NCBI GenBank assembly: GCA_001564115.1
Contig: LKNG01000001.1
Span: 1 to 48,804, forward strand
Reading direction: 5' to 3'
Length of the DNA: 48,804 nucleotides
Origin: Natrialbaceae archaeon Tc-Br11_E2g8
Lineage (GTDB): Archaea > Halobacteriota > Halobacteria > Halobacteriales > Natrialbaceae
The notes under the pieces are model-generated. The model made no database searches. It saw nothing but the letters and a program-made list of their open reading frames with translations, and was not told the origin of the DNA. Positions 3,102 to 7,694 of this stretch are shown here, piece after piece (position 1 is the first letter of the stretch; each line of letters starts with the position of its first letter). Both the position numbers and the translations under genes were made by a program.

Positions 3102-4934
3102 TCACGCCCGGTCGGGAACCAGCGCGTACAGTTCGTCCCCGGCGCCGGCGTACACCGCATCGACGGTGGCGACCGGACCGGCGCGTGCCGAACCGCCCGC
3201 GTCGAACGTCCACAGCTGTTCGCCCGTCTCGGCGTCGAGCCCGTGGACGGCACCGTCCCACGGGCTGACGTAGACGGTGTCCTCGACCACCGCGGGTTTG
3301 CCGGTGATCCAGTCGGTTTCCTCGGGGGGGCTTACCTCGAACGTCCACTCGGGAGTGCCGGTGTCGGCGTCGACGGCGTGGAGCCTGTTGTCCCGCGTTC
3401 CGACGTAGACCGTTCCGTCGGCGACCGACGGGCTACAGGTCATCCAGCCGTCGGTCTCGTACGTCCAGGCCGTCTCGCCGGTGTCGGCGTCGACGGCGTA
3501 CAACACGCCGCCGCCGTCGTCCGTCGTGCCGGCGTAGACGGTGCCGTCGACGACCGCCGGGGAGCTCCGTGCCGTGCCGACGTTTACGTTCCAGACGAGC
3601 TCGCCCGTCTCCGGCTCCAGCCGGGAGATCCCCGAGCCGGCGACGAACACGCCATCGTCGGTGACGGCGGGAACCGTCCGATCGAGGCCACCGGTCGAAC
3701 CCCCGTCGTCTCCCTCGTAGCTCCAGCGGATCTCGCCCGTCGCCGCATCTAGTGCGTACGGTCCCTCGCTCCACGTCCCGGTGTAGAGCGTGTCGCCGTC
3801 GGGCGAGGGCATCGGCGAGGTACTGAACCGGTCGTCGAACTCCGCGTTCTCCCAGCGTTGCTCGCCCGTCTCGGCGTCGAGCGCGGTCACCAGCCCGGCC
3901 GAATCGTGCTCGTCGTCGTCGTGCATCCAGTGGCCGTACGCGACGTAGACGACGCCGTCGAGCACCGTCGGACTGCCGCTGACGTGCTTTTCCTCCCGCT
4001 CGAACCCCGCGTCGAACGACCACTCGAGTGTCCCCGTGGCGCCGTCGAGGGCGTAGAGCCGTTCGCTGTCCGTCGAGAAGTAGACCGTCCCCTCGACGAT
4101 TGCGGGACGCGAGGTGATGTGCTCGCCGACGTCGAACGTCCAGGCCAGCGTGGGCTCCTCGCGGATCCGAATCGCCGACGTGTACTCGCCGGTGTTCCGG
4201 CGGTCGGCGCCGAAAAACCGCACCTCGCCGCCGCCGACGTCGGTGACGTCGTCGGTGAACGCGAGCGTGGTCGTCCTGGAGACTGCCGGCTCGGTTTCGG
4301 GCTCCGGGCCCACCGCGACCGTCAACTCGCCGTCATCGACATCATCGACCGTCAGCTCACCGTTCTCGCTCCCCTCGACCGTCTCGAGTGTCATCGAGAA
4401 CTCCCCGTCTCCGGAGGCTCTCGCCGTGGAGGGCTCCTCCCCTTCCACGGCCAGCGAGGCGTGGACGCTCTCCTGGTTCGTTTCGCCGGCGACGGTCACC
4501 GACTCGGTACGCTCTAGGGTGACGCTTTCGACGAACTCGCCGTCGCGAGCCTCCATCGAAACCGACCGGTCCTCGACCGTGACGTCGGAGAGCCGGTCGC
4601 CTCCGTCTTCCGATTCGTCTTCTTCCTCCGATTCGTCCTCGTCTCCCCCGTCATCCTCGGGTTCGTCGTTCTCGACTCCGTCCTCGTCGTCATCTTCCCC
4701 GGCCGCCGATTCGCCTTCTTCCTCCGATTCGTCTTCCTCGTTTCCATCCTGATCCTCTCTACCTTCCGACTCCTCGTCTCCTGACTCGGACTCACCGCCG
4801 TCGACGGCCTCCTCCTCGTCCTCGAGGTCACCCTCCAGAACCGTCCGCATGCAGCCGGCCAGGCCGACGACGCCGGCGACGCCGGTTCCCCGGAGCCAGG
4901 ACCGACGCGAGAACCGCCGTGGGCCCGGAGTCAT
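3102..4934 (-). CDS. PQQ-like beta-propeller lipoprotein
   Basis: 610 residues. A Tat motif (SRRSWLRG) and lipobox LAGC give an exported lipid-anchored protein. Residues ~30-115 are an almost uninterrupted Asp/Glu/Ser linker. A beta-sandwich-like stretch follows (~115-235), then a propeller of about seven PQQ-type blades, each with a motif such as YALDGATGTLEWSF, TALDAETGEQRW or AVDADTGETAWTYE. Such proteins are usually outer-surface scaffolds rather than enzymes; no catalytic dehydrogenase residues are obvious. Its ATG directly follows the TAG stop of the PH-domain gene (4935), so the two are co-transcribed. The signal region is near-identical to that of the downstream binding protein. Confidence 0.88.
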   Translation of the reverse strand: MTPGPRRFSRRSWLRGTGVAGVVGLAGCMRTVLEGDLEDEEEAVDGGESESGDEESEGREDQDGNEEDESEEEGESAAGEDDDEDGVENDEPEDDGGDEDESEEEDESEDGGDRLSDVTVEDRSVSMEARDGEFVESVTLERTESVTVAGETNQESVHASLAVEGEEPSTARASGDGEFSMTLETVEGSENGELTVDDVDDGELTVAVGPEPETEPAVSRTTTLAFTDDVTDVGGGEVRFFGADRRNTGEYTSAIRIREEPTLAWTFDVGEHITSRPAIVEGTVYFSTDSERLYALDGATGTLEWSFDAGFEREEKHVSGSPTVLDGVVYVAYGHWMHDDDEHDSAGLVTALDAETGEQRWENAEFDDRFSTSPMPSPDGDTLYTGTWSEGPYALDAATGEIRWSYEGDDGGSTGGLDRTVPAVTDDGVFVAGSGISRLEPETGELVWNVNVGTARSSPAVVDGTVYAGTTDDGGGVLYAVDADTGETAWTYETDGWMTCSPSVADGTVYVGTRDNRLHAVDADTGTPEWTFEVSPPEETDWITGKPAVVEDTVYVSPWDGAVHGLDAETGEQLWTFDAGGSARAGPVATVDAVYAGAGDELYALVPDRA

Positions 4935-6636: not shown

Positions 6637-7641
6637 TCAGTAGCCGTCGTCCTCGACGTCGACCGCGATCGGCTCGGTCTCGAAGTCGGCGTGGTCGTCG
6701 TGCCACAGCTGGAAGACGACCTCGGTGGTGCCTTCCTCCTCGCCGATGACGTGGACGTGGTCGCCGTGGTAGTCGAACTCGACGATGTCGTCGGCGTCAT
6801 CCGCGAGCCGGACCCGGAGCTCGAACTCGTGGTCGAGGTCGGCGAGGTTACCCTCGTCGTCCTCGAACTCGGCGCCCAGGGAGACGTGCTCGCCCACGGG
6901 AACGGTCGGCAACTCGCCGTCCCAGTGGTCGTCGTGGTAGTGGGCGACCTCCTCGTGGGGGTCGGGAGCGCGATCGAAGATGCGGACGTCCGCCACGTGG
7001 TGGGCGTCGAACTCGTGTTCGTGTTCGTGTTCGTGGTCGTCCTCCTCGACGACCTGGGCGTCGATCGGCGGGCTCTGGTAGTCGGCGTGGTCGTCGTGCC
7101 AGATCAGGAAGACGACCTCGGTGATCCCCTCGCTCTCGCCGTTGATGTGGACGTGATCGCCGTGGTAGTCGCCCTCGTCGATGCCGACGATCCCCTCGGG
7201 GGCGTCGTGGGCCTCCGCGACCCGGAGCTCGTACTCGTCGCCGAGCTCGAGGCTGTCGCCGTCCTCGGGTTCGATCTCCGCACCGAGCGAGACGTTGTCC
7301 CCGACTTCGATGTGTGGCAGACTCCCGTGCCAGTGGTCGCCGTGGACGTACGCGACCTCCTCGTGGGGGTCGTGAGCCCGGTCGAGGACGACGAAGCCCT
7401 CGTCGGCCACGCCGAGCTCGTCGAACGCCTCCTCGGCGACCTCCTCGTCGTGGTCGTGGTCGTGGTCGTCCTCGTCGTGGTCGTCCTCGTCGTGGTCGTC
7501 CTCGTCCTCGTCGTCTTCGTCGTCACCGGGGTCTTCCTCCTCGGCGTCGTCGCCGAGACAGCCGGCGAGCCCGAGGGCGGCCAGCGAGCCCGAGGCGACG
7601 AGCAGTCGACGGCGTGTCTCCGCGTCTGGATCGACAGTCAT
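6637..7641 (-). CDS. Two-domain His/Asp-rich lipoprotein, probable extracellular metal binder
   Basis: 334 residues. The N-terminus has twin arginines (ETRRRLLVASG) and lipobox LAGC, then a run of Asp/Glu/His including repeated DEDDH and DHDHDH. Two homologous domains follow: about 82-199 and 216-330. Each contains DPHEEVAxxHxDHWxGxLP, a VSLGAE strand, EL(R)VR/A, YHGDHVHxxGExEGxTEVVF and an LIWHDDHAD-like motif, so each carries a cluster of conserved histidines. A second HEHEHEHEF string links them. The composition suggests capture of Zn, Cu or Ni at the cell surface. No transporter gene is adjacent. An AT-rich palindrome overlaps its promoter. I do not recognise a named family. Confidence 0.75.
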   Translation of the reverse strand: MTVDPDAETRRRLLVASGSLAALGLAGCLGDDAEEEDPGDDEDDEDEDDHDEDDHDEDDHDHDHDEEVAEEAFDELGVADEGFVVLDRAHDPHEEVAYVHGDHWHGSLPHIEVGDNVSLGAEIEPEDGDSLELGDEYELRVAEAHDAPEGIVGIDEGDYHGDHVHINGESEGITEVVFLIWHDDHADYQSPPIDAQVVEEDDHEHEHEHEFDAHHVADVRIFDRAPDPHEEVAHYHDDHWDGELPTVPVGEHVSLGAEFEDDEGNLADLDHEFELRVRLADDADDIVEFDYHGDHVHVIGEEEGTTEVVFQLWHDDHADFETEPIAVDVEDDGY

Positions 7642-7664: not shown

Positions 7665-7694
7665 CTTACTAATGAATCTGACGATATTATTAAG
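7665..7694. promoter_or_regulatory. AT-rich inverted repeat (operator candidate) over the His-rich lipoprotein promoter
   Basis: CTTACTAAT at 7665-7673 pairs with ATTATTAAG at 7686-7694 (8 of 9 positions, 12-bp gap). It sits 24-53 nt upstream of the ATG at 7641 and overlaps TATA-like sequence on the minus strand. Dyads of this size are typical sites for dimeric metalloregulators such as DtxR/SirR-type proteins; which regulator binds is inference. Confidence 0.55.

Follow-up and report, generated by a model that had tools for sequence, protein, structure and literature searches.

Bacteria are known to use accessory proteins that capture zinc. One is PhtD, a surface protein of the His-triad type that is encoded in an operon with the ZnuA-type AdcAII and was found by NMR to transfer zinc to it (PMC3842936). 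ZinT is accessory to ZnuABC, and AdcA is a ZnuA-ZinT fusion (PMC7858048). AztD, a distinct extracytoplasmic protein, binds zinc and delivers it to the ABC binding protein AztC (PMC6689063), and ZepA, which is Zur-regulated and has an Ig-like domain A, supplies zinc outside the cell (PMC10957091). For haloarchaea, no accessory zinc-capture counterpart was found in the literature searched.

We analysed a gene within a 48,804-nucleotide stretch of DNA from Natrialbaceae archaeon Tc-Br11_E2g8 (the window), and we propose, with a probability of about 0.8, that it encodes a lipid-anchored extracellular accessory protein capturing zinc for the ZnuABC importer. The ORF (6637..7641, minus strand, like all parts of the gene given below) has an ATG start and encodes a 334-aa, two-domain, His-rich Tat-type lipoprotein, for which relatives were found. 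It is flanked by a universal-stress-protein gene and an ORF without Pfam match.

The protein starts with a twin-arginine signal and lipobox (RRRLLVASGSLAALGLAGC, 7558..7641) ending in the lipid-anchor Cys28; R10, R11, A26, G27, and C28 of this RR...LAGC signal are invariant in 10 relatives. A flexible linker rich in Asp, Glu, and His follows (residues 29-78, 7408..7557), and residues 1-74 have low pLDDT. Domain copy 1 (residues ~79-200, 7042..7407) and domain copy 2 (residues ~215-334, 6640..6999), both predicted as Ig-like beta-sandwiches, are joined by a His/Glu linker (DDHEHEHEHEFDAH, 7000..7041). Each copy presents three His motifs, placed by sequence and by comparison with relatives. In copy 1 these are HGDHWH (residues 100-105, 7327..7344), HGDHVH (residues 160-165, 7147..7164), and HDDHAD (residues 182-187, 7081..7098); in copy 2, HDDHWD (residues 236-241, 6919..6936), HGDHVH (residues 292-297, 6751..6768), and HDDHAD (residues 314-319, 6685..6702). 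The HxxHxH type is represented by HGDHWH and HGDHVH in copy 1 and by HGDHVH in copy 2. The two halves, ~115-aa domains, share 55% identity in a pairwise alignment, with a score of 350 vs. 44.6 ± 8.4 for shuffled sequences (z = 36), and His makes up 34 of the 334 residues, 12 per domain. These values confirm the duplicated His-rich lipoprotein reported by the first-pass annotation, and the motifs that it listed (DPHEEVA, HxDHW, YHGDHVH, and WHDDHAD) are present in both halves. Elsewhere in the window, 3102-4934 (minus strand) encodes a lipoprotein in which a PQQ-type beta-propeller-like repeat region comes after a very long Glu/Asp linker.

As judged by sequence searches, the domain is an undescribed family. 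The whole protein and 67 single domains gave only sub-threshold matches in Pfam, NCBIfam, and PDB sequence families, a known non-metal family was not found with the single-domain profile, and plasmid records held no match to the protein. Strep_his_triad (PF04270) appeared below threshold in 2 of the 67 domains (best E 0.0091) and was not among the matches of the window protein itself; we take this weak signal to be that of the HxxHxH motif only. With 67 relatives in the alignment, AlphaFold gave a confident, nearly all-beta single-domain model (pLDDT 91.9, pTM 0.84), and the predicted fold is an Ig-like beta-sandwich. Foldseek placed it among generic Ig-like sandwiches, including Rib, SbsC, and filamin, and singled out no particular neighbour (best E 1.3e-3, TM about 0.4-0.55); the two-domain model likewise gave generic Ig-like matches only. 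Because all these matches are generic, we claim no homology from the fold. The earlier suggestion of an undescribed, extracellular, lipid-anchored, and probably metal-binding protein is supported.

The genome assembly comprises 2.29 Mb in 192 contigs and is 70% complete, so other co-regulated genes may be missing. Besides the window gene, two of its proteins carry one domain copy each; weaker matches were short and fell on the signal/acidic N-terminal part. Both paralogues are ZnuA proteins (PF01297, E 4e-41 and 7e-41) that contain a single inserted domain, and the window protein has no PF01297 match and no ZnuA core. When aligned to the solved structures of B. subtilis YcdH and pneumococcal AdcA, the insert falls in the ZnuA His-rich loop. 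Where these proteins carry the insert, plain ZnuAs of relatives with the same promoter dyad (described below) have a long His-rich loop. A folded module thus stands where the His-rich loop would be. On contig C178 (L054:2502-5827), the ZnuA-insert gene is directly followed by znuC and znuB, and this complete znuA-znuC-znuB set carries the dyad. On contig C191 (L053:5875-8366), znuA lies with a znuB-like gene and encodes a long His/Asp linker before the insert; no good dyad was found upstream of it (score 9 of 13). The window gene is on contig C5 and is not adjacent to znuACB (C178) in this genome.

A putative zinc-regulon operator, TTAATAATATCGTCAGATTCATTAGTAA, with two TTANTAA-type boxes at a 21-bp repeat spacing, occupies 7666..7693 (minus strand) and ends 24 nt upstream of the start codon. 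The upstream regions of the stand-alone genes have TTAATAANATCGNCANNTTCATTASTAA in common. The window site fits this longer box with 0 mismatches and is its sole match in the genome (0 expected in the window). Across 292 genomes, allowing up to 3 mismatches, the box gave 22 matches, one per genome, and the reversed control gave 0; about a dozen of the 22 are in genomes outside the derivation of the pattern. When positions were compared with those of the domain matches, 17 besides the window lay just upstream of stand-alone genes. In G029, G213, and G150 the box is upstream of a ZnuA-insert gene, and the remaining match (G183) is unexplained.

The exact dyad, TTAWTAA-N14-WTANYAA, has 2 matches in the 2.29-Mb genome, at the window gene and at znuACB (C178), vs. 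0 for the reversed control. For relatives, we defined the dyad core as two TTANTAA-type boxes 21 bp apart and counted it as present at a score of at least 12 of 13. The 180-420-aa class, into which some ZnuA genes truncated at the locus end also fall, had it in 43/43 promoters (0.08 in shuffles), and the longer ZnuA/large class in 28/39 (0.06 in shuffles); spacings other than 21 bp gave at most 12. Given only two exact genome matches and the sharp preference for 21 bp, we rejected a generic promoter element. The dyad is near the expected archaeal BRE/TATA position, so promoter function could explain part of its conservation, but its two-copy specificity argues for more than that. In relatives, the dyad also precedes plain znuA and cobW-type COG0523 GTPase genes, and the COG0523 family has known zinc-regulon members (PMC2770081). 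Since it shares the dyad with znuACB, plain znuA, and COG0523 genes, the window gene appears to be a member of the znu regulon, though apart from znuACB. In two genomes (L143, G160:C26; L156, G105:C2), the dyad has an oxidoreductase-like gene (GAGPAGIGTGVAL start) on one side and a formyltetrahydrofolate-deformylase-like gene on the other. To our knowledge, archaea are reported without a recognisable Zur.

The first-pass annotation spoke of haloarchaea, but the domain extends beyond them: it is also present in Izimaplasma-type bacteria and in one methanogen genus. Bacteria were sampled by one weak contig scan, made mostly with low-complexity peptides, and one phylum search, so the bacterial distribution is under-sampled. 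The scan gave one relative, a Candidatus Izimaplasma MAG, whose ZnuA has two tandem domain copies in its loop and is followed by ZnuC. In a second genome of the Izimaplasma phylum, genes for a two-domain lipoprotein, a one-copy ZnuA, ZnuC, ZnuB, and a Fur-family protein follow one another. In the tree, the stand-alone and ZnuA-inserted copies of Izimaplasma form one clade (100/96), which suggests that the domain entered ZnuA twice; the AU test did not reject a single origin of the insertion (p 0.062). Strong palindromes resembling Fur-family operators, CAAATGCAAACGGTTTGCAATTG and TAAACGCGAAAGACTTGCGTTTA, are present in Izimaplasma-type promoters (upstream of 4945 in L084 and of 4216 in L038).

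Among methanogens, domain copies were found in three genomes of one mcrA-bearing genus. In two of these, at L085:5597-7823 and L087:5844-8063, the Co/Ni importer gene cbiM is preceded by a two-domain copy that has a hydrophobic C-terminal anchor, with cobalamin-biosynthesis-type genes on the other side of this copy. Thus, the domain as such is not zinc-only. At both loci, the product of the next gene, which takes the usual cbiN position, matches CarboxypepD_reg weakly. Single-domain membrane-anchored copies are located beside formate-dehydrogenase-like genes (L088:5444-6619, L089:5033-6208, and L086:5548-6105), and two of them are fused to an N-terminal His/Cys-containing region of no known type.

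These cbiM-type neighbours speak for a scavenger whose metal specificity is broad or lies elsewhere (Co, Ni, or Mn), for which the association with zinc would be incidental. One haloarchaeal cluster that holds znu and cbi genes together with domain proteins fits such a scavenger too, and Halobacterium zurM/zurA/ycdH have been described as SirR-controlled Mn uptake genes (PMC3600143). However, the window gene shares the exact dyad in this genome only with the znuACB operon, and linkage in haloarchaea is overwhelmingly to ZnuA; we regard the broader or different specificity as rather improbable for the window protein.

Within the class Halobacteria, 45/292 genomes had a domain match at E 1e-8. 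Stand-alone genes (165-400 aa) lie within 5 kb of a ZnuA-insert gene in 32/35 cases, usually in the order [stand-alone gene]-znuA-znuC-znuB, and the domain ties this unnamed lipoprotein family to ZnuABC. This operon is present in G182, the nearest relative (79% identity over copy 1); the window copy is displaced, being one of the three exceptions to the ZnuA linkage. The domain is also found in large secreted haloarchaeal proteins (785-972 aa) and in short 150-aa proteins. One cluster, L051 (G218:C12:104000-120000), contains genes for an 889-aa domain protein, znuA, znuC, znuB, a 785-aa two-copy protein, cbiM, and a cbiO-like ATPase. The same neighbourhoods hold a second undescribed His-bearing domain (ELLAEANVDHDHACFHxEYDxRTPLEAG...HVIWEVTY...GYVTFD), which occurs as Tat lipoproteins of ~210 aa (L050:8389-9015, L058:928-1548, and L058:7759-8400) and repeated in the N-terminal parts of large proteins (L021, L029, L052, L050, and L051).

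An extracellular buffer or sink against excess zinc, copper, and nickel that feeds no importer could account for the high His/Asp/Glu content, the unstructured linkers, and the lipid anchor, as well as for a gene lying apart from znuACB in this genome. We consider it less probable still than the broad scavenger: the dyad is common to the uptake operon and stands before plain znuA and COG0523 genes in relatives, in most relatives the gene is embedded in uptake operons, and the same domain is built into ZnuA. Because of the ZnuA insert, the znuACB operons of relatives, and the dyad, zinc uptake is indicated rather than the undefined Zn/Cu/Ni buffer of the first-pass annotation, whose metal-binding part stays probable.

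In the column-wise alignment of the His motifs, HxxHW is invariant in haloarchaeal domains that stand alone (25/25) or are inserted in ZnuA (24/24), and the third His position of motif 1 has either H or D. HGDHxH survives in the stand-alone, methanogen, and short forms, but ZnuA inserts have it in eroded form. HDDHAD varies more than the other two motifs and is likewise eroded in these inserts. DPHEEVA is a local feature when relatives are aligned, and no family hallmark. Conservation of the His residues is thus real though uneven, and the non-conservation of His in homologues, named at that time as the refutation, did not occur. In haloarchaea, methanogens, and Izimaplasma-type bacteria alike, the fixed columns retain His and not Asp/Glu alone. 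This rules out low-complexity filler, as the first-pass annotation had held, and suggests that the motif His are metal ligands under selection in most copies. Almost all motif His are missing, and the Trp is kept, in second copies from large proteins and in two operon paralogues. Both paralogues (L025:784-1320 and L031:2429-2977) are from the same operon region and possibly have a protein-contact or structural role; their existence means that the fold can persist without metal ligands.

An ordinary Ig-like surface or S-layer-type protein, His/Asp-rich through halophilic composition bias, would agree with a fold search that finds only generic Ig-like surface domains, but the His columns fixed across these lineages, together with the operon and promoter evidence, make it very improbable.

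Our preferred reading, zinc capture at the surface for ZnuABC, builds on features read in the sequences: the architecture, the conservation of the first motif, the insertion at the ZnuA His-loop, the operon linkage in relatives, and the promoter dyad. From the insert, the operon, and the operator, all three out of view of the first-pass annotation, we infer function, including zinc binding and metal preference. Each Ig-like domain would present HxxHxH-type His motifs to bind Zn(II), with the acidic/His linkers acting as a loose antenna. Under zinc shortage, the gene would be co-expressed with znuACB through the common 21-bp-spaced dyad operator, if expression is zinc-dependent. By analogy with PhtD-AdcAII, the ZinT module of AdcA, and AztD-AztC, the protein would capture zinc at the cell surface and pass it to ZnuA. 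Close to its zinc site, the recipient ZnuA would have a domain related to these or else a plain His-rich loop.

With moderate confidence, we read domain and dyad jointly as a mobile Ig-like zinc-capture domain and a cis-element of a haloarchaeal zinc-starvation regulon, both undescribed. The domain occurs by itself, in tandem, and within the ZnuA His-rich loop in archaea as well as bacteria, perhaps independently, and is also found attached to Co/Ni uptake loci; the regulon would comprise this gene, znuACB, and COG0523 genes.

Compared with the known systems, the window protein probably resembles AztD in being a separate extracytoplasmic zinc-binding partner of an ABC binding protein; neither the single sequence nor the profile matched the solved AztD in PDB. 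Like the Pht proteins, it is located at the surface, has repeated HxxHxH triads, and has a ZnuA-type protein encoded alongside (here in relatives). Unlike the short Pht fold, its domain is a ~115-aa Ig-like sandwich, and PhtA/PhtD gave no PDB sequence match to it. ZinT, a zinc-capture module as our domain would be, is likewise found alone and fused to ZnuA. However, ZinT is lipocalin-like and fused at the C-terminus, whereas our domain is Ig-like in the AF2 model and lies inside the ZnuA His-rich loop; profile searches with the window protein and 67 domains gave no match to the ZinT family. ZepA, compared by its published description only, is likewise extracellular and has an Ig-like domain, and the window protein would supply zinc as it does; ZepA differs in its second unique domain, PEP-CTERM, and bacterial origin. 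Finally, ZnuA (PF01297) proteins of this genome and of relatives contain the domain within a loop, whereas the window protein carries it in two copies without the ZnuA core.
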